Below are positions 5,589 through 28,571 of a stretch of DNA of 30,920 nt, piece by piece. The first letter of the stretch is position 1. The number at the start of each line of letters is the position of its first letter. Both the position numbers and the translations under genes were made by a program. The notes under the pieces are model-generated. The model did not search any database and had not been told where the DNA came from. It saw only the letters and a program-made list of their open reading frames with translations. Source of the stretch: a virus; the IMG/VR virus record IMGVR_UViG_3300046737_000183, positions 1 through 30,920 of that record; one strand, 5' to 3'.

Positions 5589-5833
5589 GTTGTTGATTGG
5601 CATGATTCGATTGGTACAGGGGGCGTGATAGGGGCAGTCATTGCAATTTGCAAGAGCCGCAGAACTACCACCTTCCGGTACTTGGGACGTCGCATTCCTG
5701 GCAATCGGCAGGTCAGATCCGGATTTGACGCCCGCACGTTGGCCCAAGTCTGGTTATGAGCGATCCCCAGAATTTCCCGGGCGAGTTTGGCGCCGAGAAG
5801 CTCCGGCAGGAACTTGATTTCATCGGTGTTCAT
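5585..5833 (-). CDS. Small HTH-like protein between terminase and portal
   Basis: An 82-residue protein. Its ATG (5833) overlaps the terminase stop by one base (TGATG), and its own stop overlaps the portal start as ATGA, so both ends are anchored by coupling. The central segment AREILGIAHNQTWANVRASN followed by RLPGMRRPKYRKVVVLRLL looks like an excisionase/MerR-type winged helix: a recognition helix after ILG, then a basic wing. This suggests DNA binding. A gene in this slot could help terminase, for example by acting as a small terminase or DNA recognition factor, but no family is certain. The last 20 residues (Pro/Thr-rich) look like a loose tail. Confidence 0.72.
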   Translation of the reverse strand: MNTDEIKFLPELLGAKLAREILGIAHNQTWANVRASNPDLTCRLPGMRRPKYRKVVVLRLLQIAMTAPITPPVPIESCQSTT

Positions 5834-7683
5834 CAGTAGGAGCCTCCGCCGTGGCTTCCGAGTTGTCCGGGCGGGTAATGCACGCAGGGACGCTTGGCCG
5901 CCATGCGTACGCAGTCAATCGGATCCTTGGTGGCGCCATCCTCGCCGTCGGAGCCTGTCCAAGTCAAAAACGCATAGATAAGGTCCGGGCAATCGCGCGA
6001 GACAAAAAGCTTTGGCGGACTGTCTGGACTGTGGGCGAGGAGATCATTGATGAATGAGATACCAACCTCGTCTTTGACTCCGGAAGCTGGTCCAGGCATG
6101 AAATCGAGTCCGGGTAGAATCTGGACCTTGTTGGCATCAAGCGTGCCTTCGGCCAACACCTCAATCATCGTTTGAGATCCATCCTCTCCGGTGTTGCGGA
6201 CCCCAGCTGGCCGAGGGTCCAGAAGGCGCTCAAATATGAGCTCGGTCAATCCCTTGGGCCGGGTAACTGCGCCGTTGTGCTCGTTCTGGAGCCAGCCTTC
6301 GGCAAGGAATATCAGCCGTTTGTAATCGGTGAAGCTTCGACCACCACCGTTGCGTTGGCCTGCGCCTGCACGGCCATCGGGCTTGTCCCCTGGCACGGCC
6401 CATTCTCCAAGATCTGCGCTTGGCCATTGTCGATAAAACCACCAATTGCCCAGTGGATCGACCCGAAGCCATACCATGAACCAATTCCGGCGTCCATGGG
6501 GGTCGGCAAGCAGATAGTTTGTGCCTTCGGCTGGGATTCGCTCGGAAGGGACCACGTGGCGGGCTTCGCTGAACTTGGGAAAGATCCGAAGGGCGCGCTT
6601 GGTCGGCCAGCCCCAGAGGCGTTCCAGCGCGAAATCGATCACGCCGCCGAGAGCGCTGCGAATGATCGCCTCGAGCCCGGTCAGGTAGGGATTAAAAACG
6701 GTCGGAAAGACAATCACGTATCTGCCCTCGGCGCGTGAGCGCAAGACGTAGGGAACGTGCCCGGGTTCGCATCCTTCTACATAATCTCGGTCCGCTGGGA
6801 GCAACCACTCGCCCCAAGCGAAGCTTTCCTTTGGGTCCCAAGGATTAGGCCAGTTCCACACGATGCGGCGCACTGGGATTTGCTGGAGGATGACGGCGGC
6901 ATCGAGATACTCGGCAACCACCTCGGTATATCCACCGACCGGCGTGAAGGTGGACACGAGAACTCCGTTGGCCTTGTGCGCGCGGAAGCGTTGGGTGCGC
7001 ACAAGCTCTGCCGGTGGGGGCTCGTCGTTCACGACAAGGCAGGCCTCACCACCTTCGGCCGACGTTCGGTCCTGCTCATATCCTTTGTATGTGAAGAGGA
7101 GGCATTTGGAGCCGTTCGGAAGGACAAACACCCGTTCAGAGAAACCGGTCGCCACGCTGTAACTGATTTTGGTGATGCCGCCTTGTTTCTTGAGGCTGCG
7201 AAGGGATGGCGGCAAGTATTTGTGAAGGGGCGGCTGCTGATAGTTGATTGATGTCGTTTCGTTCTGACTGAAAGCGCGGACTTCAACCCTCGATTTCCGG
7301 AGAAGGGTTTCAACAACCAGCTTGGCGCCGATTTCGGTCTTGCCGGAGCCGTTGCCGCCTAGGATCAAGATGTCGTTTGCCTTGTGAAGCTTTCCATCCT
7401 TATCCCTGTAGGTGCCAGCGATGAGGTCGCGTAGGATTCGCATGGGCGGGGGCTCCCAGCCATAGCGCAAAGGGTCGTGGCGTTCCTGGGCAATGAGAGC
7501 TTCACGCCTTTGGTTCCATTCTTGGACGATTCCAACGCTAGCTGGCGTGGATCCTGATTCGCGGATGAACTGGATGAGTTGACCCGGGCTTGGCGTCAAC
7601 TGTGTGGGCCATGGGGTCCAGTCAAGGCCGGCCACTTTGATGGCTCCGGACTCTACTGACGGCGTGTCACCCATGAGGCTCAT
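5833..7683 (-). CDS. terL: Terminase large subunit (DNA packaging ATPase/nuclease)
   Basis: The 616-residue motor protein cuts phage DNA and pumps it into the head through the portal. The ATPase domain shows Walker A GGNGSGKTE at about residues 109-117, Walker B LVVNDE at about 216-221, and the coupling motif LVSTFTP near 242-248. The C-terminal RNase H-like nuclease begins at YLLADPHGRRNWFMVWLRVD (about 390), where D394 would be the first metal ligand. A later acidic pair may be ISFIND or DCPDLIYAF. The start at ATG 7683 overlaps the upstream stop as ATGA; an upstream extension in the same frame is not needed. Translation is linked on both sides to small genes. Confidence 0.93.
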   Translation of the reverse strand: MSLMGDTPSVESGAIKVAGLDWTPWPTQLTPSPGQLIQFIRESGSTPASVGIVQEWNQRREALIAQERHDPLRYGWEPPPMRILRDLIAGTYRDKDGKLHKANDILILGGNGSGKTEIGAKLVVETLLRKSRVEVRAFSQNETTSINYQQPPLHKYLPPSLRSLKKQGGITKISYSVATGFSERVFVLPNGSKCLLFTYKGYEQDRTSAEGGEACLVVNDEPPPAELVRTQRFRAHKANGVLVSTFTPVGGYTEVVAEYLDAAVILQQIPVRRIVWNWPNPWDPKESFAWGEWLLPADRDYVEGCEPGHVPYVLRSRAEGRYVIVFPTVFNPYLTGLEAIIRSALGGVIDFALERLWGWPTKRALRIFPKFSEARHVVPSERIPAEGTNYLLADPHGRRNWFMVWLRVDPLGNWWFYRQWPSADLGEWAVPGDKPDGRAGAGQRNGGGRSFTDYKRLIFLAEGWLQNEHNGAVTRPKGLTELIFERLLDPRPAGVRNTGEDGSQTMIEVLAEGTLDANKVQILPGLDFMPGPASGVKDEVGISFINDLLAHSPDSPPKLFVSRDCPDLIYAFLTWTGSDGEDGATKDPIDCVRMAAKRPCVHYPPGQLGSHGGGSY

Positions 7684-8126
7684 TTTGTTTCGGCTGTTCT
7701 CTCGAGATCCTCTATGATTTCGTCGAGCACGAAGTAGACTGGGCGAGGTTTGTGCATGAATTGCCAGTTGATGAGCCCGCAAGCGGCGCGCACGTCTGCC
7801 CTGGCAACGCCTTCCTTTTGGAGTTCCTCAATTGCATGTCCAAACCACTTTACCATGTCCATGTCGTAGAGGATTTGAGCATTCACATAGCTCACTATCC
7901 GGTTCTCCTGAAACGGATTCATGCTGGGACCCGGCACGAGCTTGTAGCCTGTCGGCGGGGTTCGGAAATATCGGTCTTTCGACTTCTCCAACACCTCTTC
8001 CCGGAATTCCTTAACGAACTCGACAAGCTCCGCCGGCGATCCTGGCGGCAACTTGGCCACTGGTTGTCCGGTGGCATGGTCCCAAAGGATCTGGTCCGCC
8101 GCCGCTTGAATTGTTATGCCGCTCAT
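7680..8126 (-). CDS. Hypothetical protein directly before TerL (small terminase candidate by position)
   Basis: A 148-residue protein that overlaps both neighbours as ATGA: the helicase gene upstream and terL downstream. Visible features are an N-terminal helix (TIQAAADQILWDHATGQP), the segment AELVEFVKEFREEVLEKSKD, and a helical C-terminal half with YVNAQILYDMDMVKWFGHAI and a Pro-rich turn before LDEIIEDLERTAETK. There is no clear HTH. Small terminase subunits commonly sit just upstream of the large one, so that role is possible, but nothing in the sequence proves it. The frame is open upstream to 8405; that extension runs inside the helicase gene and is rejected. Confidence 0.7.
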   Translation of the reverse strand: MSGITIQAAADQILWDHATGQPVAKLPPGSPAELVEFVKEFREEVLEKSKDRYFRTPPTGYKLVPGPSMNPFQENRIVSYVNAQILYDMDMVKWFGHAIEELQKEGVARADVRAACGLINWQFMHKPRPVYFVLDEIIEDLERTAETK

Positions 8127-9706
8127 ATCGGTATTCCCTCCATTTCCTTCTGTTGATGCTTGTGCCTCTCTTCCTTGTAGGCGTCCACGAAGGCGGTGCA
8201 CCGCTTCTGAAACACTAAATCGCATGGCCCGGTCTCGCCGTTGCGGTTCTTGGCCATGTCGAACCGTATCAAATCCAGTTCGGCGCGCCATTCGGTTGGG
8301 AAAGTGATCGTCTCGTGGTTCTTGGGCTCGGTTAGTGTGGTCTTCGGTCCATCGATCCACGGCGAATTCTGCTTCATGCTCCAAGGCTCGTGGTGCGTGA
8401 TCCACTTCATTGAGTGGAAATCGGGCTCACGTCCAAGGTCTGGCCGGTACATGAGGCCGACAAGGTCGGCGTCCTGTTCTATCTGACCGCTCTCCCTCAG
8501 ATCCGCGAGCGATGGAATGGCATGGCGTGACTTGGCGGTCTCGCGATTCAGTTGGGCAAGGCAAATCACACTGACGCCAAGATCTTTCGCCGTGCGTTTA
8601 ACCCAGCGCGACATTTCGCTTACTTCGTTGACGCGGGACTCGCTCGGTTTAACGGCCGCCATCAGTTGAAGGTAGTCGACCACTATCAATTTGACGCCGT
8701 GATCTCGGATGGCTCGCCGCGTGGTCACAAACAGGTCACGGCCGTTGAGGTCGGATCGGGTGTCCACAAGGAGAAGGCGCATCCACGGACTGGATTCCTC
8801 GGCGAAGACTTCAATGCGCTTGGCGGCTTCTGTGGATAGAAACCCGTTGCGGATGGTGCGCGCGTCGACTCGGGCCCCGGCGCCGAGGATGCGCAAGCCT
8901 ATGGGAATTTCTGACATCTCCACCGAGAAGAAGAGAACAGGATGAGACTGTCGCAGGGCTGCAAGTGCGAGAGTGACGCCGAGGGCAGTCTTTCCGATGG
9001 ATGGTCGGGCGCCAATGACGAACATCTCGCCCGCCTGCAGGCCGCCAGTCATGTTGTCGAGGTATCGGAGGTTTGTGGCAATGCCGGTGATCTCCTTACG
9101 GCCTAGCACGGACTTGCGGAGCATCTCATAGACGCCCGCCATGATCTTGGTGGCCGGCATGGGTCCGGCGACCAGATGTCCGTCCGTGAGTTTGAGGGTG
9201 TCGGTTTGTATTTCGGCGACCAATTCCGACACCGCACCTTGATTGCGTTTGACTCGGTCGATGACATCTCGTCCGAAGCGCATGAGGGTCCGGCACGTCC
9301 ACTTCTCGAGCAGAATCTCAACATAAGAACCCAACATGGCAGCGCTGGGGACCGTGTCGCAAAGGCTGCTGAGGTAGACTTGGCCTCCGACCGCATCGAG
9401 TCGCTCGCGGTTCGACAATTCATTCTGGAGCGTGACGAGGTCGATCTTGACCCCGCCTTCCCACATCAGGCAGAGGGCGGCATAGATTTCTTGGTGGCGC
9501 AGGTCATAGAAGGCGTCCATGCCGGGTCGCGCGAGCAACTCCGCGCATTGATCCATCGACATATCCGGATCTATGAGGATGCAACCGAGAACACCCATTT
9601 CGGCGTTTTGCGAGCTTGGCGGCAGTTCATCTCCGCGGCCGTTGCGGGACGTCCCATCCGTGGCCTCGTCGGGCTCCGGGAAGTAATCGCGCAGCTTGGC
9701 ACTCAC
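8123..9706 (-). CDS. dnaB: Replicative DNA helicase, DnaB family
   Basis: The 527-residue protein should unwind DNA at the phage replication fork as a hexameric ring. The N-terminal DnaB domain begins near residue 34 (NAEMGVLGCILIDPDM) and ends near VGGQVYLSSLCDTVPS. The RecA-like ATPase has Walker A GARPSIGKTA at about 232-241, the EMS motif after LFFSVEMS, Walker B VVDYLQLM at about 342-349, and the late motif ESGQIEQDADLV. About 65 residues near the C-terminus (after MYRPDLGREPDFHSMKWITH) look like an insert before the final IRFDMAKNRNGETG segment. The start is GTG 9706, overlapping the upstream stop as GTGA. The neighbouring DUF1376 gene completes a replication pair. Confidence 0.92.
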   Translation of the reverse strand: MSAKLRDYFPEPDEATDGTSRNGRGDELPPSSQNAEMGVLGCILIDPDMSMDQCAELLARPGMDAFYDLRHQEIYAALCLMWEGGVKIDLVTLQNELSNRERLDAVGGQVYLSSLCDTVPSAAMLGSYVEILLEKWTCRTLMRFGRDVIDRVKRNQGAVSELVAEIQTDTLKLTDGHLVAGPMPATKIMAGVYEMLRKSVLGRKEITGIATNLRYLDNMTGGLQAGEMFVIGARPSIGKTALGVTLALAALRQSHPVLFFSVEMSEIPIGLRILGAGARVDARTIRNGFLSTEAAKRIEVFAEESSPWMRLLLVDTRSDLNGRDLFVTTRRAIRDHGVKLIVVDYLQLMAAVKPSESRVNEVSEMSRWVKRTAKDLGVSVICLAQLNRETAKSRHAIPSLADLRESGQIEQDADLVGLMYRPDLGREPDFHSMKWITHHEPWSMKQNSPWIDGPKTTLTEPKNHETITFPTEWRAELDLIRFDMAKNRNGETGPCDLVFQKRCTAFVDAYKEERHKHQQKEMEGIPI

Positions 9707-10644
9707 TTCGCACCTCCAGCGATTTCGACCGAGGAGGACTTGAGCCCCTGGAGTTTCTCGCAGAGGGCGACCCACTCCGGGCGGTAGTATTCTTTGGCCT
9801 GAAGCGAGCCAACGCTGGAGGTTGGATTGCCCATGTGGCCGGCAATCTCCTCCTCGAGCAGCCGGATTTGGGTGGCGATGGGTGGCAGGCCTGGGCCGGT
9901 GCCGTTCGCTGGTGTTGGTTCGCTGCGGCGTTTGGTCTCCTCGGCCTCCCGGTTCCTGGCGTACGTGCTGACGGTCTTGAGAAACCAGAACCAGTTGCGA
10001 ATTGCAACACCTTTGACGTCGGTGCCGCCGCGGTAGACGGCCTGGCCCCACTGGGTGACCGCGAACTCTTTCGAGCAGCCGACCAAGGCGGCGCTTTCGA
10101 CGGCCTCGGATTCGGTCTTCGGGAAGCCCTTCGGAAGCTCGACTTCGACCGCCTCGCGCGCGCTTTGTGTGTGTGCTTCTTCTGGAGAAGAAGCAGGAAG
10201 CAGGAAGCAGGAAGCAGGAGGCTGAGGTTTTGCTGATAGCTTTGCTTGTTCACAGCTACCAGCTGAGCTACCAGCTGAGCTACCAGCTGAGCTACCAGCT
10301 GAGCTTGGTGCATTGTTGGGGGTGTTTGCCTTGGCTTTCTTGGCGAGCACACCCTTCTTTCCGGCTTCGGATCTCTCTAAGCGATAGGCATCTGCGTCGG
10401 ATCGGATGCGTTCAAGTCGGCGGTTCCTTCGGAGCCCATCCTCGCCCACAATGAACTTGGCAAGGACGTCATCGGTGACGGGTCCGCCGGCGATCCGGCG
10501 GAGCTTGTCGGTGTCGGAAGGGATAAATCCGGCATCCCACTGATAGCAGAGCAAACGCACAAAAGCTCCAAGCTCAGCTTGGCTTAGGTCGGTGGTGGTG
10601 GCGATGAGGTCGCCAGCGTACAGTAGGAAGGCTGGATTTCTCAC
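9703..10644 (-). CDS. DUF1376 (YdaU-like) replication-region protein with repeat linker
   Basis: A 313-residue protein. Residues 1-85 match the DUF1376 pattern (RNPAFLLYAGDLIATTTDLS, then GAFVRLLCYQWDAGFIPSD and LRRIAGG), a winged-helix-like domain found in phage replication and helicase-loading genes. A basic linker holds four SSAG repeats (about 113-131), then a stretch coded by a heptanucleotide repeat (about 143-152). The C-terminal part (NWFWFLKTVSTYARN) may be a partner-binding domain. GTG 10644 is chosen because GGAGGAG sits 8 bases upstream; TTG 10650, which overlaps the previous stop as TTGA, is the alternative. A role in loading DnaB is an inference from the adjacent helicase. Confidence 0.82.
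   Translation of the reverse strand: MRNPAFLLYAGDLIATTTDLSQAELGAFVRLLCYQWDAGFIPSDTDKLRRIAGGPVTDDVLAKFIVGEDGLRRNRRLERIRSDADAYRLERSEAGKKGVLAKKAKANTPNNAPSSAGSSAGSSAGSSAGSCEQAKLSAKPQPPASCFLLPASSPEEAHTQSAREAVEVELPKGFPKTESEAVESAALVGCSKEFAVTQWGQAVYRGGTDVKGVAIRNWFWFLKTVSTYARNREAEETKRRSEPTPANGTGPGLPPIATQIRLLEEEIAGHMGNPTSSVGSLQAKEYYRPEWVALCEKLQGLKSSSVEIAGGAK
10191..10218. repeat. Four tandem copies of the heptamer aagcagg inside the DUF1376 gene
   Basis: The unit aagcagg repeats at 10191, 10198, 10205 and 10212 without mismatch. It lies inside the coding region, in the linker. Seven is not a multiple of three, so any gain or loss of a copy would shift the reading frame and remove the C-terminal half of the protein. 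Confidence 0.9.
10254..10308. repeat. 12-base tandem repeat coding SSAG units in the DUF1376 gene
   Basis: The unit agctgagctacc occurs three times perfectly (10261-10296), with a partial copy before it and a degenerate copy after it. Read on the minus strand it encodes repeated Ser-Ser-Ala-Gly. The unit is a multiple of three, so copy-number change would only alter linker length. Confidence 0.9.
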
Positions 10645-10646
10645 AT

Positions 10647-10916
10647 TCAAGGCTCCTCCGGGAGGAATCCTCCCGGTTTGAGAGGGGTGGATAGGCTGTG
10701 ACCGCACGTAAGGGCGCAATCGAGCACTTCCGCAAGGCTCAGGACAATGCGCCACCGTTTTCTTGGCCTCCGAACTACGATGCCCTCCGCCGGCCTGTAT
10801 TCGACCAACCAGCGGAATTCGGTGCAATCGGCAGTGCCGAGGCGCACCACCTTGTTTCGGCGCTCCTGTGGGGGCTCCTGGCGCTTTGACGAGGGTTCTA
10901 GGGGTGGGTCGATCAT
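10647..10916 (-). CDS. Small basic hypothetical protein upstream of DUF1376
   Basis: An 89-residue protein that starts at ATG 10916, overlapping the preceding stop as ATGA. It ends 2 bases before the GTG chosen for the DUF1376 gene. The N-terminal 25 residues are polar and charged (SSKRQEPPQERRNKVVR). A short beta-rich core follows (EFRWLVEYRPAEGIVVRRP, then RWRIVLSLAEVLDCALTCG). The C-terminal end, PLKPGGFLPEEP, is coded by the hairpin region and is probably just a by-product of it. No family is recognised. The size and core suggest a small single-domain protein of the early region. Confidence 0.65.
   Translation of the reverse strand: MIDPPLEPSSKRQEPPQERRNKVVRLGTADCTEFRWLVEYRPAEGIVVRRPRKRWRIVLSLAEVLDCALTCGHSLSTPLKPGGFLPEEP
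10653..10676 (-). promoter_or_regulatory. Ribosome binding site beside a GC-rich hairpin, DUF1376 gene
   Basis: On the minus strand, GGAGGAG (plus 10653-10659) lies 8 bases before GTG 10644. Immediately upstream, 10658-10665 and 10669-10676 (ccgggagg and cctcccgg) form an 8-bp stem with a 3-base loop that takes the first two bases of the Shine-Dalgarno sequence. A hairpin touching the ribosome binding site may modulate initiation, or merely keep it open when the upstream gene is translated. Confidence 0.55.
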
Positions 10917-11683
10917 TTCTCGTTCAAACGGAGAATTGTGTCGGTGACGTTATCGAGGAACCCACTTTCCTTGAGGACTTTCAAGCGTTCGCAGAGTTCG
11001 ACGAATTCCTGAAGCTTCTGAATCTCGCTGGCGTGGTCCTTGTCCATAAAGAAGTTCCTAACCTCGCGAAGGTTGGTCATCAGGGCGCGGGTTTCGCCTT
11101 CGATGGCGAATCGCGACTGCCTGATTTCGGTGGTGCGTTTCTTAATGTCATCCATCCAGTCCATCCAGTCCATCCGCCAACGCGCCATGATGACTTCGAG
11201 CGCGTTGGTAAGGTCCAAAGCCTGTTCTTCAAGGGAACTGACGTGCTCGATTGTACTGGGGCCCTCCTTGAGTACTCTGGTGACCAGAGACGCATCCCTT
11301 TCGGAGGCGCCCCCACTGTTCATGGCTATAAGTGTCCGTTCCGAGGCGGTCTTGGCCTCGTGGATAGTTTTCAACGATGCTTTCTGGCTCAGGAATCGGG
11401 CCTGTCGGATGTTGGGTGTGGCTTCTGTTGGTCCGGTTTCTTGTGCTGGCATAGGTGGTGGTGGTGGTGGTGGTGGTTTGGCCCACCAAGGCGACTTGGC
11501 GAGCATTTTAGCTGCTTGGCGGTCAATGGGCTTCCAAAGTACATCGCCTCCAGCAACCTTGTGGTCGACAAAGGGACGGGTTGGAGGTTTGGACGGTCTC
11601 GAAATCCTCGGGACGAACGATGGGGGCGGAGTCGAGCTCGGAAACAGTTTGTTCAGTTGGGCTCTGATCGGGTTGAGTTTCAT
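10913..11683 (-). CDS. Coiled-coil protein with a polyproline tract, function unknown
   Basis: A 256-residue frame. Residues 1-60 are Pro/Ser-rich, then KSPWWAK leads into eight prolines (coded by eight ggt units at 11454-11477). The rest is helical and charged, with a 9-base repeat (tccatccag, 11151 onward) that gives MDWMDWMDD, and a long coiled coil to the end. It ends with an ATGA overlap to the next gene. The start is uncertain. ATG 11683 would overlap the preceding gene by 161 bases, and a start at ATG 11506 would avoid that. The two frames could also be one gene broken by an indel. No function is assigned. Confidence 0.6.
   Translation of the reverse strand: MKLNPIRAQLNKLFPSSTPPPSFVPRISRPSKPPTRPFVDHKVAGGDVLWKPIDRQAAKMLAKSPWWAKPPPPPPPPMPAQETGPTEATPNIRQARFLSQKASLKTIHEAKTASERTLIAMNSGGASERDASLVTRVLKEGPSTIEHVSSLEEQALDLTNALEVIMARWRMDWMDWMDDIKKRTTEIRQSRFAIEGETRALMTNLREVRNFFMDKDHASEIQKLQEFVELCERLKVLKESGFLDNVTDTILRLNEK
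11454..11477. repeat. (ggt)8 microsatellite coding polyproline
   Basis: Eight uninterrupted ggt triplets lie inside the coiled-coil gene and encode eight prolines on the minus strand. The repeat is in frame, so length changes would only alter the tract. Confidence 0.9.
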
Positions 11684-11813: not shown

Positions 11814-12146
11814 CTAGCTTCCCTCTGGCGCATCCATAACCCAGACGATGTCAGCCACGCGAATGTCAACTCCTCGGTCCGCTTTGTAGGGGAGAATTTT
11901 TACCGCATCCTGTTCCCAGTCCCCAAGACTCAGATGAATCCATCGAGGATCGAGCATTCTTGCCCGCTCAAATCGGATGACTTCTCCGGTGCGTAGTTTC
12001 AGGGCGTAATCGAACGGATCCACGCAGGCTTTTGCCAGGGCCTCGGATCCAATCAAGGAAGTGAGGATCTTTTCGAGCTGTTGGCCGGTGTACTCTCCAG
12101 CGTCGGGTGCGAAGTCGTCGGGGTTGGCTGTTTCTGGTGTGTTCAT
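11814..12146 (-). CDS. Hypothetical protein downstream of the protease-like gene
   Basis: A 110-residue acidic protein. The ATG at 12146 overlaps the preceding stop as ATGA and the stop abuts the next start. After a short N-terminal tail, residues 20-45 are helical (GQQLEKILTSLIGSEALAKA). The C-terminal half is a compact beta-type domain (ALKLRTGEVIRFERARMLD, then WIHLSLGDWEQDAVKI and GVDIRVADIVWVMDAP). Small domains of this kind are common in phage early genes, but I do not know the family. There is no signal peptide, so it should stay in the cytoplasm although its upstream neighbours are exported. Confidence 0.72.
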   Translation of the reverse strand: MNTPETANPDDFAPDAGEYTGQQLEKILTSLIGSEALAKACVDPFDYALKLRTGEVIRFERARMLDPRWIHLSLGDWEQDAVKILPYKADRGVDIRVADIVWVMDAPEGS

Positions 12147-12886
12147 TTTGGTTCTACTTTCACGTTGGTGACGGTCACTGGCAGGGCTGGCACGGTGTTG
12201 GTGGGAGGGTTAAGCCAGTCGGCCACGGCTCCAAGGAATGGGCGCACGAGGGCCCCGCCCGAGTAGGTGTCTAGCTTCACCGGGTTGTTGCCGCTGGAGA
12301 TGGGGCCCAGGAATCGCCAGTCCTTGGTGTAGGTCGAATTCCCGCTGTCGCCGTCGGCGGCCGCCGCGTTGCCGCCGATGACTTCCGGCGTGTTGAATCG
12401 CCACCAGAATTTCCCCCGGGTGCAGGTGACGGCGGCCTGGCCAATCCGTTTGGTTTTATTGGCGCCCCAGTACCAGATTTCGCCGTTGGTGATGCAGTTG
12501 GTCCCATCGCTCGAATTGCAGGCGGCACCGTCCGCGACGATCCAGACGTGTTCAAAGGGTGTCATGGCGCTGGTCCAGCCATTGGTGGCAATGGGGGCCC
12601 AGCTCTTGAGGGGCTGACGCATGATGAGGAAGCGGATGTCCTCGGTCGCGACGTCAATCGTCTTGTCGATCTCGTTCGTAATGCCCTCGTAGACGATCCT
12701 GTTGCCGTAGCTGACGTGTTTGACGCCGACCATGACCTTCCAACCTATGGCGGTGCATTGGTGTGCGTTCCAGGCCCAGCCGATCGCCCCCGGCGGCGCG
12801 TTGGTTCCGGCCCACACGCCGTTTGTGATGAGCAGCGCCCGGACTGGCAGCTGGATCAACAGGAGAATGGCAAGCAACGCTTTCAT
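12143..12886 (-). CDS. Exported trypsin-like serine protease candidate
   Basis: A 247-residue protein. Residues 1-18 form a clear Sec signal peptide (MKALLAILLLIQLPVRA). The mature part fits a chymotrypsin-fold (S1-like) peptidase: VGVKHV with H57 as the general base, EDIRFL with D83 in the place of the DIALL motif, and DGDSGN with S181 as nucleophile. Four cysteines (44, 123, 131, 155) could make two disulfides, as expected outside the cytoplasm. The spacing between Asp and Ser is normal for the fold; the stretch between His and Asp is short. It lies at the end of a run of exported proteins and is linked to both neighbours by ATGA overlaps. The substrate is unknown. A secreted fold lacking activity is possible. 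Confidence 0.62.
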   Translation of the reverse strand: MKALLAILLLIQLPVRALLITNGVWAGTNAPPGAIGWAWNAHQCTAIGWKVMVGVKHVSYGNRIVYEGITNEIDKTIDVATEDIRFLIMRQPLKSWAPIATNGWTSAMTPFEHVWIVADGAACNSSDGTNCITNGEIWYWGANKTKRIGQAAVTCTRGKFWWRFNTPEVIGGNAAAADGDSGNSTYTKDWRFLGPISSGNNPVKLDTYSGGALVRPFLGAVADWLNPPTNTVPALPVTVTNVKVEPK

Positions 12887-13341
12887 TCAACCTTCACGCG
12901 GCCGGTGAGTTTGGATGTGCCTCCACCTGCCTCAATGCGGAGATAGCCGGGAGGAGGTCCGCCCATGGAAACGCTTCCTGGGACGTAGAGCCATGTCCCA
13001 CTCCCTCCACGGTCCTGAACCCAGTTCTGTGAATCGTTCACGCCAGATGAGAGGGCGATTGAATTCCCATCCCAGCTGACAACGAGCCGCTTTCCGTTCA
13101 CATGGACGAGCGAGACGTTGAGGGTCTCCGCGCGCTGGGCGTAGGAGATTTCATATTGCTCGCCCGTCTGGTAGTGCTCGAAACTGCTCCAGTCGTTTGT
13201 CCCGAACGTCCTTCGCGGTTTGTCCTTGCTCTTGCCAAGCGTGATCGCGAGCACGATTCCTACAAGCAGGTTGACAAACATTATGCACTTAGTCGATCTC
13301 CAGAGCTTCCAGTCGCTCAATTCAATATGAAATAGTTTCAT
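12883..13341 (-). CDS. Membrane-anchored small protein of the exported cluster
   Basis: A 152-residue protein. A polar N-terminus (residues 1-18) is followed by one hydrophobic segment (about 19-36, KCIMFVNLLVGIVLAITLG), then a basic KSKDKPRR. The rest is a beta-rich domain with many Ser, Gly and Tyr (EHYQTGEQYEISYAQRAETL, then NGKRLVVSWDGNSIALSSG). I expect a single-pass membrane protein. The basic stretch right after the segment makes the orientation uncertain by the positive-inside rule. The start ATG overlaps the previous stop by one base and the end overlaps the protease gene as ATGA, so they are translated together. No family was recognised. Confidence 0.7.
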   Translation of the reverse strand: MKLFHIELSDWKLWRSTKCIMFVNLLVGIVLAITLGKSKDKPRRTFGTNDWSSFEHYQTGEQYEISYAQRAETLNVSLVHVNGKRLVVSWDGNSIALSSGVNDSQNWVQDRGGSGTWLYVPGSVSMGGPPPGYLRIEAGGGTSKLTGRVKVE

Positions 13342-13532
13342 CAGGTCGGTTTGTAGACTTCGTGGTAGATGCGAGTTCCGTCTTTTTCATCGCCGTCCCA
13401 CTGGTAATCACGGATGTGGTAGCGGCCGGTGTGTCGTTCTACAGATACCATGCGCTGGTAACGCTCTCCGATGTTGTCCGGAACCTCCCTGGAGTCTCGG
13501 AGCCCATCCGCCGTCTCTAGGATAATCTTCAT
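13341..13532 (-). CDS. Small hypothetical protein within the exported cluster
   Basis: A 63-residue protein starting at ATG 13532, 2 bases after the preceding stop. The frame is open further upstream, but that part lies inside the neighbouring gene and looks random. The sequence MKIILETADGLRDSREVPDN continues into a short beta-rich, charged domain (YHIRDYQWDGDEKDGTRIYHEVY). It has no signal peptide, so it would be the only cytoplasmic member of this group. Its N-terminus looks like one strand followed by a turn. The function is unknown. Confidence 0.68.
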   Translation of the reverse strand: MKIILETADGLRDSREVPDNIGERYQRMVSVERHTGRYHIRDYQWDGDEKDGTRIYHEVYKPT

Positions 13533-13534
13533 CC

Positions 13535-13948
13535 TCACTTGTCTTGAAAGAAGGCATAGGCATTGTTGCTGGCGCAGATGCCTTGATTGTTGTAGGCCGT
13601 CATCGAGACGACAATTCCCTGCATGTTGGGCGCGCAGGCGTCGACGAAGGCATACCCGGTGACGGAGTCCTGCCCGTATCCATAGTATTTGTCCTCGATT
13701 GTCTTGGGACCAATCGGGGACATCCAGTAGGTGTGCACGCGCCACTTCATGGCATACTCGCCCGAGAACCCATACACCCAGATCTTGTGGACGCCGGTAT
13801 CGCTTAGATTGTTGTAGGCAAAGATGACCGTGCGTTGAAATATACCATTGGTGTATACCACTTTAGGCTTGAGCACGCCCGGCACAAGGCATTCAGCGGC
13901 GAGGGTCAGGGCCGCCAAGCAGGCGGCAACGATTGCGGTGGCTTTCAT
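13535..13948 (-). CDS. Exported hypothetical protein
   Basis: A 137-residue protein starting at ATG 13948, 2 bases after the previous stop. Residues 1-19 make a signal peptide (MKATAIVAACLAALTLAAE). The cysteine at 20 is not preceded by a proper lipobox, so cleavage by signal peptidase I near ALTLA is more likely than lipidation. The mature domain is beta-rich and aromatic (HKIWVYGFSGEYAMKWRVHT, then YYGYGQDSVTGYAFVDAC). Three cysteines are present. An in-frame upstream extension to 14053 is inside the neighbouring gene and is rejected. The function is unknown, but it belongs to a block of four genes for exported or membrane products. Confidence 0.72.
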   Translation of the reverse strand: MKATAIVAACLAALTLAAECLVPGVLKPKVVYTNGIFQRTVIFAYNNLSDTGVHKIWVYGFSGEYAMKWRVHTYWMSPIGPKTIEDKYYGYGQDSVTGYAFVDACAPNMQGIVVSMTAYNNQGICASNNAYAFFQDK

Positions 13949-13950
13949 AT

Positions 13951-14580
13951 TCAAGGCCAGAGTTCGATCGAAGCGGTGACGGTCTTTGGCAGCGCTTCCG
14001 AGCGGACCGGGTTGGAGGGGTCGCTGGCAAACTTCTTGTGGAACGGGCTCCACGTCAGAACCCGGATGAATTCGAGTTCCTGTGCGGCCAGCAATATGAT
14101 CTCTGTGGCATTAGTGACCGTGGCCACCGTGGTCCAACTGACGGGGAAGTCCGAAGCGCGTCCCTTCTGCACTGGGAATGTCACACCCGGCAGATCTACG
14201 GCGTTGTAGGACCAACTGACTTTAATCTGTCCGACCGCGTTGGTGACGGCCTGAACGTCGATGACGCCGAGGCTATGCTCGCTCCCGAGCCAGTTGGGGG
14301 GTGAAGCGCTGGGCTTCACCGGCGGCGTCTTGGATGAAGGCATTCCGCCGCTGACGAGGATCTCGCGATGGCCAGACGAGTTCGTCCGGACGCTCACGGT
14401 GACGCCGTCGACATCGGAGAGGACAATTGTCGGCTCCTGAATTGCGTGTGGGGCAAGTGAAGCCGCGCTTGGCTGGCCTGTGGGGGGCAGCGGCGGGGCC
14501 TTGCTTGGTAGAACCTCGGCGCCGATGAGTACCATGGCGGTGAGGGCGAAGAGGACAATGGACAGGCGTTTATGCTTCAT
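13951..14580 (-). CDS. Exported hypothetical protein, first gene of the exported cluster
   Basis: A 209-residue protein with a Sec signal peptide at residues 1-21 (MKHKRLSIVLFALTAMVLIGA). A Pro/Ser/Ala-rich linker follows (about 22-48), then a beta-rich segment (TIVLSDVDGVTVSVRTN) and a second Pro-rich patch. The C-terminal domain is about 100 residues, with repeated hydrophobic strands (GVIDVQAVTNAVGQIKVSW, then VSWTTVATVTNATEIILLA). The C-terminal style resembles fibronectin-like domains of exported verrucomicrobial proteins, an impression only. No catalytic motif is visible. It is separated by 36 bases from the Acb2-like gene upstream, one of the few real gaps in this operon. Confidence 0.74.
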   Translation of the reverse strand: MKHKRLSIVLFALTAMVLIGAEVLPSKAPPLPPTGQPSAASLAPHAIQEPTIVLSDVDGVTVSVRTNSSGHREILVSGGMPSSKTPPVKPSASPPNWLGSEHSLGVIDVQAVTNAVGQIKVSWSYNAVDLPGVTFPVQKGRASDFPVSWTTVATVTNATEIILLAAQELEFIRVLTWSPFHKKFASDPSNPVRSEALPKTVTASIELWP

Positions 14581-14616
14581 GGTTGCGTGTGGCTAGCTGT
14601 TTGGTAGGTGGCTGGC

Positions 14617-14820
14617 TCATTTCCCGGCAGCGATGGCCTTCAAGTCTTGCTCAAGCCACATAATGGCTTCCTGAACCTTGGTGACGGCCAGGGCGCGTTC
14701 CCGGCTGTTCCTCGATTGCTGGTCGCGCTGCATGGTCAGCATTGAATCCACGGTGGCCGTGAGGTCGGCGCGCCAGGCTTTGGTTTGGTCTTCGTGGCTG
14801 ATGATTGTTTTTTGGTCCAT
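14617..14820 (-). CDS. Small helical protein resembling the Acb2/Tad1 hairpin family (possible anti-CBASS sponge)
   Basis: A 67-residue protein starting at ATG 14820. It has two helical parts; the second carries SRERALAVTKVQEAIMW at residues 39-55. From memory, phage proteins annotated as Acb2/Tad1 hairpin domain share a C-terminal pattern close to S-R-E-x-x-L-A-x-T-K-L-E-E-A-x-M-W. Known members bind the cyclic nucleotide signals of CBASS and related defences and so protect the phage. This protein lacks the usual N-terminal part and has LEQ instead of ANA after the Trp, so the match is partial. The next gene upstream is a clear paralogue. Other helical hairpin proteins could share this look, so the function is a hypothesis. 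Confidence 0.6.
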   Translation of the reverse strand: MDQKTIISHEDQTKAWRADLTATVDSMLTMQRDQQSRNSRERALAVTKVQEAIMWLEQDLKAIAAGK

Positions 14821-14822
14821 AG

Positions 14823-15206
14823 TTATTTTGGTTGGTTGGTTTGTTCGAGTAACGCACATTCGATTTTGTATTTCAGTTGTCCTATGCGCCAATGGCGCAG
14901 ATCGCGCTTTCGGCCCTCTTGGAACGTCTTGCGCCAGCGCGCTACGCGCTGGCGTTCCTTGAGGACTGAGGCAGGCGGTTTGTCTCCAAGGGCTACGAGG
15001 TCCTTGGCCAGCCAAAGGACAGCTTTATGGAGGGCGTTCTCGGCCTGCGTGCGGGTGCGCCGTTGTCGGTTGATTACGCCGTTTGATTCATGGAGCGAAT
15101 CGTAGATTGCGGCCAGGGTGTTGCCCCAGTTTCTCGTCTGCTCCGTCTGAGAGATGAGTTCTAGCTCGCTTAGCCTGTGGATTGGATTGCTGGGTACGAG
15201 TTTCAT
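14823..15206 (-). CDS. Paralogue of the neighbouring Acb2-like protein with a basic C-terminal extension
   Basis: A 127-residue protein. Residues 18-75 align with the next gene's product: ISQTEQTRNW matches ISHEDQTKAW, LAAIYDSL matches LTATVDSM, and TQAENALHKAVLWLAKDLVA matches ERALAVTKVQEAIMWLEQDL. The C-terminal 50 residues are strongly basic (LKERQRVARWRKTFQEGRKR) and are absent from the shorter paralogue, so they could bind nucleic acid or be a separate helical module. It begins at ATG 15206, overlapping the upstream stop as ATGA, and ends 2 bases before the paralogue. The pair arose by tandem duplication. If the hairpin assignment is right, this copy may have gained another target. Confidence 0.7.
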   Translation of the reverse strand: MKLVPSNPIHRLSELELISQTEQTRNWGNTLAAIYDSLHESNGVINRQRRTRTQAENALHKAVLWLAKDLVALGDKPPASVLKERQRVARWRKTFQEGRKRDLRHWRIGQLKYKIECALLEQTNQPK

Positions 15207-15898
15207 GCAAGAAGCAATTGGGGTGGATTTGGCGGATGAAGGGGCGCTGGAGCTTCGAGGACCATCGGGCGTTTCGTCTTTGGCTTTGGAAGGAACTCTT
15301 CCAGCAGGCCTTCGATGTGCTTGGCGATCGCATCGCGCGCACTCTCGGCGGCATAGGCTCGCGCGATGGGAATTGCCAGGTTGCGAGCGAAGGCATTCGC
15401 CAGCGCGTGGTCGAAGGTTCTGAGCGCAGAACCCACGGCCAGTTCATAGGTGAAACCGAGGTCGAGCAGATCTTGAGGCCTGTCCTTGAAGCCCAGTCGC
15501 TTGAGTTTGCGCCCGGCGGCCAGGAACGATTGCCTGTCGCGGATCGGATCCAGGGACCTAAGGGCCTTGGCGAGTTGAGGCTCTCCGACGCTGTCGAGAA
15601 GGATGGGTCTCAGAATTCTTCCGCAGACGTCGGCACAGCGAATGGCTCTGGCGTAGGTGGTTTTTCGGTTCACTCTTCCACCGATGGCCCGTTTAACGAT
15701 CTCCCGGCCCCAAGTGTAGCGGTCTGGGCCGCCTCGGTTCCACCACCAGAAGCCATTCCATCGCACGTTAGCCAGCATCGCGACCACTGGGCAGATGGAT
15801 TCGAGTTTTTCCTTGGATCTGGCCGGGTTGGATGGGCGGAAGGTAGTCTTCAACACCATGTCTGTGCGGCCCTCTGCCATTGAAATCTCTGGTTTCAC
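15203..15898 (-). CDS. Hypothetical protein, early operon
   Basis: A 231-residue protein starting at GTG 15898, which overlaps the upstream stop as GTGA; a longer frame to 16093 is not needed. It is basic and Trp/Arg-rich in the first half (VRWNGFWWWNRGGPDRYTWG). The middle is helical (FGRILRP-like segment CGRILRPILLDSVGEPQLAK), followed by KLKRLGFKDRPQDLLDLGFT and a long helix (SARDAIAKHIEGLLEEF). The end is a Pro-rich tail. The short Trp cluster and basic charge fit nucleic-acid contact, but no known motif is present. It is translated together with the HTH-like gene upstream and the Acb2-like pair downstream. Confidence 0.72.
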   Translation of the reverse strand: MKPEISMAEGRTDMVLKTTFRPSNPARSKEKLESICPVVAMLANVRWNGFWWWNRGGPDRYTWGREIVKRAIGGRVNRKTTYARAIRCADVCGRILRPILLDSVGEPQLAKALRSLDPIRDRQSFLAAGRKLKRLGFKDRPQDLLDLGFTYELAVGSALRTFDHALANAFARNLAIPIARAYAAESARDAIAKHIEGLLEEFLPKPKTKRPMVLEAPAPLHPPNPPQLLLA

Positions 15899-16401
15899 CA
15901 GACCCCCCTTCTCCGCGGGTACATCCCCGGTTTTGAAGCCTCTCCAGCAGCGCCCAGATACCGCCAGGCGAGGTCCGGACCACGTTCGGCCAGTATCCGC
16001 ATGCCTGGTAGAAACAGGTGCCTCATATCGTGTCGTACGCGCACGACGCACCATTGCGAACGCAGATGCGCGGGCGTGCCATTTTCGACGCACGCGATGG
16101 TGTAGGGGGCCGGCATGGCCACGTAGGCGACCGTAAGCTCTGTGGGGACGCCATTTTTTGGGAATTCGACTTGGTAGGCGCCCACGACTCGGGCGGCGGC
16201 GTCCTGACTCCAGAGGATGACGCCGCGATCGCCGCGGACGAAGTCCTTGCCCTCGGTGCCGCGGGCTTTACGGATGACTTCGCGCGAAACGCCTAGGTGG
16301 GTGGCGAGGGTTGACTCCTCGTGCGGGAAATCGGGATGGGTGATGGCTGGCTGAGGGGTGGGGGGCATAGGACAGAAATCTAGGAGAGTGTTACCCATCA
16401 T
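15895..16401 (-). CDS. HTH-like DNA-binding protein
   Basis: A 168-residue protein. ATG 16401 overlaps the previous stop as ATGA (a second ATG follows at 16398). After a Pro-rich start, residues 34-75 read ESTLATHLGVSREVIRKARG followed by DRGVILWSQDAAARVV. This is a good helix-turn-helix with a short wing, like small phage regulators. A beta-type domain follows (ELTVAYVAMPAPYTIACVEN, then QWCVVRVRHDMRHLFLPGMR) and the end is basic. I expect a cytoplasmic DNA-binding regulator or replication accessory. The next upstream protein also carries an HTH-like stretch. Confidence 0.75.
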   Translation of the reverse strand: MMGNTLLDFCPMPPTPQPAITHPDFPHEESTLATHLGVSREVIRKARGTEGKDFVRGDRGVILWSQDAAARVVGAYQVEFPKNGVPTELTVAYVAMPAPYTIACVENGTPAHLRSQWCVVRVRHDMRHLFLPGMRILAERGPDLAWRYLGAAGEASKPGMYPRRRGVW

Positions 16402-19573: not shown

Positions 19574-19875
19574 GACTCTTAACCATGCCAACTCCACAGA
19601 CAGCAAGCGAGATTGCCACCTTTGCCACCGGAGTCCTGCTCCGAAAGGGCCACTTGAATGAGGGATACTCGCTTGATAACGCGGCGGACGCGACTGAACT
19701 CGCCGCTGACCTATGGGCCATCGCAGACAAAGGCGATCTCGACGTTTGCAATTCGGCCTGCATTGCTTTCCACGTTGCCGCCTTGCATCAGCTTCTCGAC
19801 GCAGCTCTTGAGCCTGACCTGAAGGCTTGGAGGTTCAACCGGCACGCCCGAGAAATCTACCGCGCCATTGCATGA
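19570..19875 (+). CDS. Small hypothetical protein before the integrase
   Basis: A 101-residue protein starting at ATG 19570 (ATGA overlap); a second ATG at 19585 is the alternative start. It is Ala-rich and helical (ASEIATFATGVLLRKGHLNE, then DATELAADLWAIADKGDLD) and ends with KAWRFNRHAREIYRAIA. No motif was recognised. Its stop overlaps the integrase ATG as ATGA, so it is tightly linked to integrase production. A small protein in this slot could be a recombination accessory factor, but the helical sequence does not show a clear HTH. Confidence 0.72.
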   Translation: MRLLTMPTPQTASEIATFATGVLLRKGHLNEGYSLDNAADATELAADLWAIADKGDLDVCNSACIAFHVAALHQLLDAALEPDLKAWRFNRHAREIYRAIA

Positions 19876-21161
19876 AAGACGCGATCCCATTCACCCACGC
19901 TGGCAAGGCACGCCGACTTGTGCGGCAACCTCGGGACCGCAAGTTGCCCGAGGTTGAGCGGGCCGGACGCCCGTGGGTCCTGCGCTACACGCGACCCGAC
20001 ACGAGAAAGGCCGCTTGGAAGAGCATCGGGGGCGCGCACGAGACGCCGAAAGTGTTGGCCGCCAAGGCAAAGGCATTCCTCAAGGGGTTGGAAACCCAGC
20101 CCGCAGCGGCCTGGATCGCAGCCAATGCCGCGCGGCGCGGCTTGCTCGTCGCGACGCTTGTCCACGATTTCATTGACGCTGGGTGTCCTGAATCGACTGG
20201 GCGGCCACGCACACACAAGCGCCTGGACGACATGATTGCGCAGTTAAACACCGCGCTTTGGTACTTTGGCGACCTAATCGCGGAGCGCCTGCGACCCGGC
20301 GATTGCATCGAGTTCGCGGAGTGGAAGCGTACCCAATTGAAAGCTGCGGGCCGTGCTGTTGGGCAGGGAGGCGCGCGAAGCTGCGAACTCGCTCTGAGTG
20401 CCCTATCTGGTGCGCTTTGGTGGGGTGTCCTTACTCGGCGGCTCGAGGTCAACCCTTTGGCCAACAGGCCAGCGTTGCGCGCAGCCTCCGAAATCACGCA
20501 TCACCACCGTTTCGTTCCAGACTCCGACGAGGAGCTCCACGCTTTGGCTAGTTGGTGTTTCAAAGAGTCGCCTGCGACCGTAGTCGCCGGGGCTCAGATT
20601 CTCTTCTGTGCCATGACTGGTCTTCGGAGCGGGGAATTGCCCTGTCTGCAATGGCCTGCTGAGGGGAGGCCGTACAATGGGCCGGGCATGTTGCAGGTCT
20701 GCAAACCGGACGGTTCTGAAATCACTTGGCTGCATGTCCGCCGCGAGAAACGCGGGACCAATCCCGTCGTGCGGGTTCATCCCGCCCTCGCGATGCTCAT
20801 CGAGGCATGGCGCGCGTATCTCGCGCGAACCGCACCCGGCGTGGAATGGATGTTTCCCGGGCCGGGCGGGGGCCAAGGGCGCGCCGATTTCTCCCGGGTG
20901 TTGGCTCGTGCCGCGGAAGGCATCGGATCGCCTGCAAACCGATTTGGCGAGACTCGCCGGACGTCCCACGCGCTCCGGGCGTACTACGTCGAAGTCCGGC
21001 GCAATGCCGGCGCTTCGGATCTCGCAATTGCTGGCGACCTCGGGCAAGGCGGTGGCGACCGCCTCATCCGTACGACCTACGGGGCCGCCGACTCGTTTGC
21101 GAGCGGCCGCCTGTGCTGGCTGCCAACGGGGATTCCGCCCGCGTGGCAGCTTCTCTCCTGA
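19872..21161 (+). CDS. int: Tyrosine recombinase (phage integrase)
   Basis: The 429-residue enzyme should integrate and excise the phage genome by site-specific recombination. The N-terminal half holds a basic arm and a core-binding segment with PRTHKRLDDMIAQLNTA. The catalytic half shows TGLRSGELPCLQW with R252, a possible Lys at 293 (RREKRGT), SHALRAYYVE with H366 and R369, and RTTYG with Tyr403 as nucleophile. The usual second His (LGH) is replaced by Gln (LGQGGGDRLIRTTYG, Q392), a known kind of variation. ATG 19872 overlaps the preceding stop as ATGA. It is the main sign of a temperate lifestyle. The attachment site is not evident; the short AT-rich gap after it (21162-21192) is a candidate only. 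Confidence 0.9.
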   Translation: MKDAIPFTHAGKARRLVRQPRDRKLPEVERAGRPWVLRYTRPDTRKAAWKSIGGAHETPKVLAAKAKAFLKGLETQPAAAWIAANAARRGLLVATLVHDFIDAGCPESTGRPRTHKRLDDMIAQLNTALWYFGDLIAERLRPGDCIEFAEWKRTQLKAAGRAVGQGGARSCELALSALSGALWWGVLTRRLEVNPLANRPALRAASEITHHHRFVPDSDEELHALASWCFKESPATVVAGAQILFCAMTGLRSGELPCLQWPAEGRPYNGPGMLQVCKPDGSEITWLHVRREKRGTNPVVRVHPALAMLIEAWRAYLARTAPGVEWMFPGPGGGQGRADFSRVLARAAEGIGSPANRFGETRRTSHALRAYYVEVRRNAGASDLAIAGDLGQGGGDRLIRTTYGAADSFASGRLCWLPTGIPPAWQLLS

Positions 21162-22487: not shown

Positions 22488-22780
22488 CCAAGCAACGTCT
22501 CTATCAGTTGCGCCAGGTCGCCCGCGGCCGTTGCATGATTTGCGCCACTGATGGCTTTAAGGGCGGACTCTGCAAGGGCCACTATGCGGAGCATCAAAAC
22601 AAGCGAAAGCGGCGTCTCGCTGAGCTCGTGGCACTTGGTCAGTGTATGCAATGCAAGGGCTCGAGCGATGGCAAGCAGCGTTGCCTACGCTGCCGCGAGG
22701 CGTTCAACGCCGCGAGCCGCCAGGCGTATGCGGAGCGCCGGCTAGGGGCGAGCCTTGGTCCGCTCGCGCTCCCGCCGTAA
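22484..22780 (+). CDS. Double zinc-finger protein, end of the rightward operon
   Basis: A 98-residue protein. The start is TTG 22484, overlapping the previous stop as TTGA, with GAGGAG 8 bases upstream; an in-frame upstream stretch lies inside copy 2 of the cassette. It has two metal-binding units: C17-x2-C20 with C30-x2-H33 (RCMICATDGFKGGLCKGHY), and C54-x2-C57 with C67-x2-C70 (QCMQCKG, then RCLRCREAFNAASR). The linker is basic (NKRKRRLAEL), so nucleic-acid binding is likely. Its 3' end overlaps the end of the large polyvalent gene on the other strand by 39 bases. Confidence 0.8.
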   Translation: MTKQRLYQLRQVARGRCMICATDGFKGGLCKGHYAEHQNKRKRRLAELVALGQCMQCKGSSDGKQRCLRCREAFNAASRQAYAERRLGASLGPLALPP

Positions 22781-25700
22781 CAGGTCCGCCTTGCTCGCCG
22801 CACTCGGCATCCGTTGAAGCCGCTCCTGCAACAAGCTCGAGCGGCTCTTCATTAGTCCGGGCAACACCCGTTGCAGATGCTCGAGCGCGTAGGGGTCGCG
22901 CAACAGCACACGTTCGCTCTTGCTCATTTGGGTTTCGAGAATCTGCCGGCGGAGTGCCGGACCCTGTCCACCGCGGATGGCTGCGCTCGCGGTGTCGAGC
23001 AAACCAGCGTCCGCCCAGCGGCGCGCGAGTACTTCAACGGCCTGCCGCTGCTTCGCGCGGAGTTGCTCAATCTCGGCGCTCGCCTCGCGGTCGGCGTCGA
23101 AGAGACCACCGTTTGACGATTTGATCCAGCGGCCGACGGCGTTCTGGATCACGGGCGCCGCGAGAAAGGCCTGGACGGCCGTGTCCTTGGGCGCGCTCAA
23201 GGGTTGGTTGCGGAATCGGCCGATGATTCCACCGCCAAGCTGATTCACTGTCCACTCGCTCAGTTGTTTCGTGGCAGGCCAACCGCCTGCGGCAAACGTC
23301 GTGTCGTCGATGACATGGCGGCCGGTGTGCAAATCGGTGGGGTTGACGCCGCCGAACGTGTATTGACCGATGGCAAGGAGTGACTGAAACACGGGGTTCA
23401 GCGACGGCAATTGACCCCCGAAAATGTTGCCCCACGCGCTTCCGCGCCCGCTGAACGCTTTGAACAGAGCCGCGTGCATGATGCGCATGGGGTCGGGCAA
23501 GGGCAGTCGGAAATACAGCACTTTGCCGCGTGCCTCGTCGTCCCAAGCAATTGGAATGACGAAGTAGTTGGACATGTCGTAATCAGGCACCGATCGAAAC
23601 TTGCGCTTCGTGTCCTCGCCAAAGGCGCCCGCCGCGCCCATTGCCATCGCCGCAGTCGGCACACCGACCATTGCGGCCATCTTGCCCGCAAACTGCCAAG
23701 GATGCTCGGCTACGCTCGAGGCCCACGCCCTCATTCCCTGTTTCCACGGGTTGAAGAACAGCCCAAAAAAGTCAATCGTGGCATTGCTCGCGCCTCGGTC
23801 GAGGAAGTCCGGGGAACCCGCCCGGCTCCGTACAATCTCGCGTTGTTTCCATTCTGGTAGGTTGGAGAAATTCTTGTCCAAGTAGGTCATTCCCTGTGCC
23901 TTGGTGAACCGTTCGACGGCTTGCCCCACTGCCAGGTACTTGTGCCAAAGACGCATGGCGGCATGCACGCCCTGCGCTTCGGCGTCCCAAAGCTTCGGGT
24001 CCATTCCAAACGAGGCCAGCTTGACGTCGTACAGGTCCGAGACGTTGCCGTAGACACCGCGGGGATCCTCGCGGGACACCACCATCTGGCGGCGCAAGAG
24101 TGCGTCGGCGATCGGGTTCTTAACGTCGCCGCGGGCGCTCGCGCGGGCCGCCTCCCACGCGGTAGGTGCATTGCGCAGCCAATGCGTGGCCAGTTGGCCA
24201 AGGTGGCCAGGCATGACCGCCATGAAACCAAGCGTGTCGCGCACGAAATTAACCGGCCAAAATCCATAATTTAAGGCCGTAAACAAAGCTTTCTGCCAGT
24301 TGAGCGAGCTGGTTACAGCGCCATGCAATCGCGAGTCGAGAGCCGCGCCGCCGTTGATCGCGTCGGCCTGTACCTTGCGTACGTAAAATGCTTTGGGTGC
24401 GCCATCCTCGAGAAGGACGATTGTGCCGACGCGCTTGGTGTTGACGATCTTGAACTCGCGACGGTCGCCTGCCCACCGCGACTCGGCCGGGATGATCTCG
24501 CCCGGTGTCTCGCGCGAGAGCGTGCGCACGATCTCGCGCTTGGCGATGTTGCGGTGAGCTGCGCTAATCAGGGAGAGCGCCTTTAAGACGGTGGCCGTCG
24601 CCGGGTTGCGTACTTCGCCGAGCATTCCAATTTGCGTGTAGATGTGAGGCGTGACGTTCGAGCCATAGGCGAGTTCGATCTCACGTTCTATCCCTTTGTC
24701 GGGCAGGCCTCGTACCGCGGCGAAAGTCGCGTAATTGACATTCTCGTCGATCTTGTCCTGAAGCTTTTGATTCCAAAGCCGGGCCGCTTTCATCAAAGGA
24801 ATGACTTGCTCGGCGTAGATCGATCGGAATTCAAAGCCGGCGGAAGTAAGAGCCTGCCAGCGCGCGGGACCAAGCTGGGTTTGCATCTCTCGCAGGCGAT
24901 CAATGGACGCCTTCGGGTGCCATCCGCCCGGGTTGTAGAGGTTATGACGTTCGTTGATTACTCGCTGATGAAAAAGGAGTTCGCCTAAGTCGGCCATGTC
25001 GAGGTTGTGCGCGAGCAATTTGCCGCCGACGCGCTCGTTGACATGCGCCAGAAATCGCTCGTGCTCCGCGGCCCTGTAGCGGAAATTCCCGACGGCACCC
25101 ATGAGGGCACCCTCGCTCTTGGTGTCCTTGGCCACGCGGTAGACCGGGCCGAAACGGCGATCGACGTGGTACAAAATGTTATCGTAGATGTCCGCCTTGG
25201 CGGTCTTCTGTTGCTCGCGCCACTTCTCCACGCTGGCCTCGGCGTCCCGCCGCCATGAATCCCGCAGACGCAAAACGCGCTCGCGGGCGACAGTGCCCGC
25301 GGAAATGCTGTCCTGAATCCTCTCGAAGGTTTCTTTGACCTCGGGCCTTGCGTCGAGCCAGCCATGAAACAGGCCGTAGGTGATGGGTGCGCGCGCCGCC
25401 ATGGCCGCCGGATTATTGAGGAAGACTGAGAAGGCCTCGGCATACATCTCGGAAGGTTCTTTGAAGTAACCTTCCATCTTGGCCGTGCCGCGCCACCACG
25501 CAATGAGCGGCTCGAGCTCGGCCTTGACTTTGGCGAGTTCGACCGTGCGTCGAGCCTTCATTTCCTTCTGCAGGAGCGCTTCAAAGCGCGCGCGCACCTC
25601 GGCCTTGGTCGGCTCGCGTCCGGATTTCTCGCGGACGGTGCGCCAGACCTTGCGCGTCCCGGTTTGCACCGTGCCCTGCACGGTGGCCAGGCGTTGGTCG

Positions 25701-28570: not shown

Positions 28571-28571
28571 G

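Follow-up and report, generated by a model that had tools for sequence, protein, structure and literature searches.

Two consecutive genes on the minus strand of the virus record IMGVR_UViG_3300046737_000183, encoding proteins of 127 and 67 residues (w127 and w67), raise the question of whether they form a counter-defense locus of the Acb2/Tad1 hairpin type. An earlier note on this DNA had proposed this for both proteins from the letters of the sequence. The window referred to here is the whole stretch of DNA that was analyzed, which is the complete record of 30,920 nt.

Gene layout of the locus

Both reading frames are present at the positions and on the strand that had been given for them (Table 1). 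The start of w127 shares four bases (ATGA) with the stop codon of the upstream gene, which suggests co-transcription and translational coupling of w127 with that gene, and the ATG of w67 lies 2 bases beyond the TAA of w127. Because of the ATGA overlap and the 2-base spacing, w127 and w67 seem to belong to one operon.

The PHROGs search indicated an integrase, a major head protein, a terminase large subunit, and a DnaB helicase, a gene content suggestive of a temperate tailed phage. The genes surrounding the pair are uncharacterized, with no recognized defense or counter-defense gene among them, and the PADLOC defense-system models gave nothing of note for the pair and its neighbors. The terminase-based search for kin of the record in IMG/VR resulted in one contig (36%), while the searches through the major head protein and through the gene upstream of w127 resulted in none.

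The window shows several further features. The four ORFs directly downstream of the pair (209, about 137, 152, and 247 aa) have hydrophobic or signal-peptide-like N-termini and no family matches, and they are probable secreted or membrane proteins, several of which would be grouped here in one phage. The ORF of 1964 aa, which has no PHROG match, probably encodes a large virion or ejection protein. In-frame repeats are found in two other genes, with the short tandem repeat AGSSAGSSAGSSAGS in the coding sequence of a primosomal-like protein and MDWMDWMD together with a run of eight prolines in a protein of 256 aa.

Table 1. Coordinates of the features discussed; positions refer to the window, except where the label of a relative (L) is given.
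Feature	Position	Strand	Description	Evidence
w67	14617-14820	-	67-aa Acb2/Tad1-hairpin protein	Pfam PF24729, family profile, AlphaFold2
w127	14823-15206	-	127-aa divergent w67 paralogue	BLASTP, shuffle test, AlphaFold2
ATGA overlap	15203-15206	-	w127 start and stop of upstream gene (15203-16093, -)	Sequence
Gap after w67	14581-14616		36 bases to next gene	
Integrase	19827-21161	+		PHROGs
Major head protein	725-1762	-		PHROGs
Terminase large subunit	5833-7782	-		PHROGs, weak match
DnaB helicase	8123-10051	-		PHROGs
Four downstream ORFs	12143-14580	-	Probable secreted or membrane proteins	
1964-aa ORF	22742-28636	-	Probably virion or ejection protein	
Primosomal-like protein	9703-10827	-	In-frame tandem repeat	
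256-aa protein	10913-11683	-	In-frame repeats	
RyR-hairpin fusions	L002 5587-6267, L065 5614-6222, L091 5124-5732		Two virus contigs and a Bacteroidetes MAG	
Tail-bearing hairpin family, examples	L003 1271-1543, L012 5953-6264			
Relative with interrupted tail	L084 (G028:C1:26699-27010)		In-frame TAA	
Tyrosine-recombinase-like genes	L014 6718-7740, L020 6365-7378		Just downstream of hairpin gene	By eye

Membership of w67 in the hairpin superfamily

With the Pfam family of the Acb2/Tad1 hairpin (Pfam ID PF24729), w67 obtains 28 bits where 27 are required (E = 2.5e-6), and a genome search with PF24729 places it at 27.2 bits (curated cut-off 27). Since the margin of 1 bit is thin, membership of w67 was tested independently with a family profile, which was built from 47 of the 94 relatives with readable frames found in IMG/VR and GTDB scans and from which the window was excluded. 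Against this profile, w67 reaches 54 bits (E = 1.3e-14). The profile-profile comparison of w67 and 20 tail-bearing relatives with an independent set of 13 Acb2/Tad1 proteins gave 95.5% (E = 1.6e-8).

Searching the whole PDB with the family profile at E <= 1 resulted only in Tad1 entries, the best at 3.6e-8, and in the protein named Acb2 homolog 43 (PDB ID 9ptq, E = 0.3), with neither 7uq2 nor p26 being matched. The weak PHROG matches of w67 are 1454, 15810, 717 (E = 0.077), and 2428, where PHROG 717 is the Vs.4 family (PMC10097602) and PHROG 2428 has a strong match to the protein of phage SPG24 that is annotated as Tad1. The motif quoted in the earlier note, SRERALAVTKVQEAIMW, is found in w67, where residues 39 to 55 carry the second-helix motif SRExxLA(I/V)TKxxEAxMW. 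By these comparisons, w67 very likely belongs to the Acb2/Tad1 hairpin superfamily, as a divergent member.

The AlphaFold2 structure of w67, predicted confidently with the family alignment, is all helical (helices 3-33 and 40-66; mean pLDDT, 90.7), and that of w127 has four helices (14-41, 49-72, 79-98, and 103-123; mean pLDDT, 79.3), with lower values in its C-terminal half. In both monomer models the first two helices form the antiparallel hairpin expected from the earlier reading. The Foldseek search of both models against the PDB gave no match at E <= 0.001. A two-helix hairpin is too simple to be diagnostic, and Foldseek is uninformative for such folds; the null result is expected, and the family call is therefore based on sequence.

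Duplication and divergence of w127

BLASTP aligns w67 and w127 with 34% identity across 59 aa (E = 8e-8). Their local score is 80, compared with 27.1 +/- 4.9 for shuffled sequences, of which none in 5000 reaches 80 (z = 10.9), and no other open frame of the window scores above 42. Based on the BLASTP match, the shuffles, and the margin over the other frames, the duplication is real, and the common origin that had been proposed for the two proteins is borne out. In a tree of the short hairpins, w67 is placed beside w127, between the tail-bearing family and Acb2/Tad1, the joining node being without support.

The second protein does not yield a Pfam match to E = 10, nor an NCBIfam or useful PHROG match, and the family profile matches it marginally (E = 0.018-0.028). 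The resemblance to Acb2/Tad1 claimed for both proteins is thus supported for w67, which passes the PF24729 cut-off, and not for w127, whose membership is indirect and which counts as the paralogue of a member, linked to the family via w67. Where w67 keeps 18 of the 23 positions that are conserved in at least 80% of the 47 relatives, w127 keeps 7 and departs at 16. It has T, N, A, and L at the positions of w67 E41, T47, K48, and M54, and it retains those of R40 and W55.

The hairpin of w127 spans approximately residues 14 to 72 and is followed by an added basic helical C-terminal segment (79-123). Past about residue 75 there are 14 K/R versus 5 D/E, which amounts to about +9 net charge and agrees with the basic C-terminal part described earlier. 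Searches of IMG/VR with w127, alone and aligned with w67, found no relatives, and the search of phages resulted in one meaningless match (E = 3). Apart from w127, no second copy beside a hairpin gene was found among the 12,639 open frames of all the loci retrieved.

C-terminal tail and copy number in the relatives

One scan of IMG/VR showed 160 related stretches. They have the hairpin in common with w67 and belong to a PF24729-related, tail-bearing family found in crAss-like, Bacteroides, Tenacibaculum, and many IMG/VR phages. We found no experimentally tested protein among the nearest relatives of w67.

A strongly conserved C-terminal tail, NPYPxSYxPxxxxIEPTADGLKL, is present in 89 of the 94 readable relatives by a pattern test and in 91 if two cases recognized by eye (L095 and L084) are included. 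In L084 the tail begins and an in-frame TAA then cuts the tail region. The three relatives without a tail (L101-L103) are closer to Acb2 or Tad1 than to the tail-bearing family. Both window proteins are tail-less, with w67 ending in DLKAIAAGK and w127 running into the unrelated basic segment, and the gap downstream of w67 is too small for a tail remnant. Of 30 records searched whole, 29 have exactly one hairpin copy and the terminase relative has none, whereas the window has two. As the other 29 are single-copy and the tail is nearly universal, the tandem tail-less arrangement is unusual within this sample.

The closest relatives (L012-L018) have QTKxWRxDL in common with w67. Across the family, w67 shares K14, R17, R40, E41, T47, K48, E51, M54, W55, D59, L60, and K61; R40 and W55 are invariant across 49 alignment rows, and T47 is nearly so.

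Comparison with Acb2 and Tad1

The Acb2 proteins (T4 Vs.4, PDB ID 7UQ2; Pseudomonas phage p26, PDB ID 8H2J) have a helical hairpin like that of w67. The cGAMP contacts of T4 Vs.4 are Y8, H11, K23, R79, and F82, and its hexamer is held by L29, A66, A73, and A77 (PMC10097602). K14 of w67 aligns with the cGAMP contact K23, and T47 aligns with T68, for which the substitution T68M has been reported to reduce the binding affinity of T4 Acb2/Vs.4 (PMC12657230). However, w67 is without the N-terminal segment of Acb2 that carries Y8 and H11, and Q58 and K61 stand at the positions of R79 and F82, so the Acb2 dinucleotide pocket is not conserved in w67.

In the second helix, R40 of w67 lies seven residues ahead of T47, and w127 has R50 but N57. 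The same seven-residue spacing separates R67 and T74 of Pseudomonas p26, a candidate cyclic-trinucleotide site on the second helix; Cao et al. reportedly described both residues in 2024 as trinucleotide contacts in p26.

Tad1 (Bacillus phage SBSphiJ7/SPG24; PDB IDs 7UAV, 8KBB-8KBH, and 8SMD) has the C-terminal hairpin motif RENAMAITKLEEALMW, as in w67. Its N-terminal beta domain, which forms the gcADPR pocket, has no room in the 67 all-helical residues of w67. By the features examined, w67 is neither Acb2 nor Tad1 proper. Acb2 homolog 43, with the motif form REKSVxxTKLEEAMFF and its weak similarity to the family, has 76 aa and is present as six chains in 9ptq, suggesting that a chain as short as w67 may belong to this group; we found no paper describing it in the literature. 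According to the earlier note, the remainder of the usual domain is absent from both window proteins, which is correct for the Acb2 N-terminal stretch, the Tad1 beta domain, and the tail of the relatives, whereas the helical hairpin itself is whole.

Putative function of the pair

Judged from these sequence relationships, the pair is probably a stripped-down counter-defense locus. The reading we favor, with a probability of roughly 55%, is that w67 is a minimal, tail-less sponge which by homology sequesters an immune signal. By homology it would also oligomerize through its helical hairpins, and the signal bound during infection, possibly via the central site of the hairpin, would be a cyclic nucleotide or a related molecule of CBASS, Thoeris, or a similar system. 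The second gene would have arisen by tandem duplication and subsequent divergence, losing most of the hairpin signature under loosened constraint and gaining the basic helical extension; with these changes w127 is probably not an independent sponge but a degenerate copy that either works together with w67, or modulates it, or is heading to another role. Against a sponge function, w67 may bind nothing if it is the tail of the relatives that binds the ligand.

An unlikely alternative, although the one that fares best, is that the sponge has two components, with w67 and w127 forming a hetero-oligomer and the basic C-terminus of w127 providing structure or a new specificity instead of the lost tail. 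The close spacing in one apparent operon fits such a partnership, as does the lack in both copies of a tail that 91 of the 94 relatives have, and w127 keeps the hairpin length, W65, D69, L70, and an alanine aligned with Vs.4 A73. The departure of w127 at 16 of the 23 conserved positions speaks against it, and the single-copy relatives evidently need no partner.

Somewhat less likely again, the locus might be a decayed or escaping sponge, in which the absence of tail and pocket residues means that nucleotide binding was lost, neutrally or under selection, and which would have little present function. Selection for Acb2 loss is known in T4, where it is exerted by Panoptes, which punishes sponges (PMC12657218), and the missing tails, the strong divergence of w127, and the in-frame TAA of L084 would be in line with decay. 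However, the frames of w67 and w127 are both intact and w67 keeps 18 of the 23 conserved positions, including R40, E41, T47, K48, E51, M54, and W55, which suggests selection on the w67 core.

It is more doubtful still that the duplicated tail-less hairpins form a two-gene, hetero-oligomeric sponge of changed specificity (for example, for trinucleotides only), in which the w127 extension replaces the tail. Least probable is a re-use of the hairpin apart from immune signals, as a scaffold, a regulator, or a nucleic acid binder acting via the basic C-terminus of w127, since for all the simplicity of the fold, the charge of that segment, and the uncharacterized neighbors, the PDB profile matches are confined to Tad1/Acb2 and the fusions of the family include a signal-degrading domain type (RyR).

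If w67 does bind an immune signal, as the favored reading of a minimal sponge has it, it would rank with the smallest nucleotide sponges. The hairpin alone would then be enough, without the Acb2 N-terminal segment, the Tad1 beta domain, or the tail of the relatives, and the role of each of these additions would become testable.

Domain fusions in the wider family

The RyR domain (Pfam ID PF02026, E down to 2.7e-11) is fused to the hairpin and tail in three relatives (L002, L065, and L091), and the Sulfitobacter phage phiCB2047-B matches residues 9 to 168 of L065, that is, both domains. Fusions are frequent in the family, and further N-terminal ones are to crAss001_48 in L053 and L100 and to DUF1508 in L086. 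Phage proteins with a RyR domain were recently found to act on Thoeris signals, either degrading or sequestering them (PMC13232231); the main text of that paper mentions neither Acb2, Tad1, nor "hairpin." The RyR fusion links the hairpin family to counter-defense by association, and a dual counter-defense protein is a plausible reading of it. The RyR fusions, the tail of the relatives, and the single copy in the 29 other records are absent from the earlier note. With its 160 stretches and its RyR, crAss001_48, and DUF1508 fusions, the wider family looks like a large candidate reservoir of phage counter-defense.

The tail-bearing hairpin family is widespread in phages, with two examples listed in Table 1. 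Two of the closest relatives of w67, L014 and L020, have a tyrosine-recombinase-like gene just downstream of the hairpin gene.
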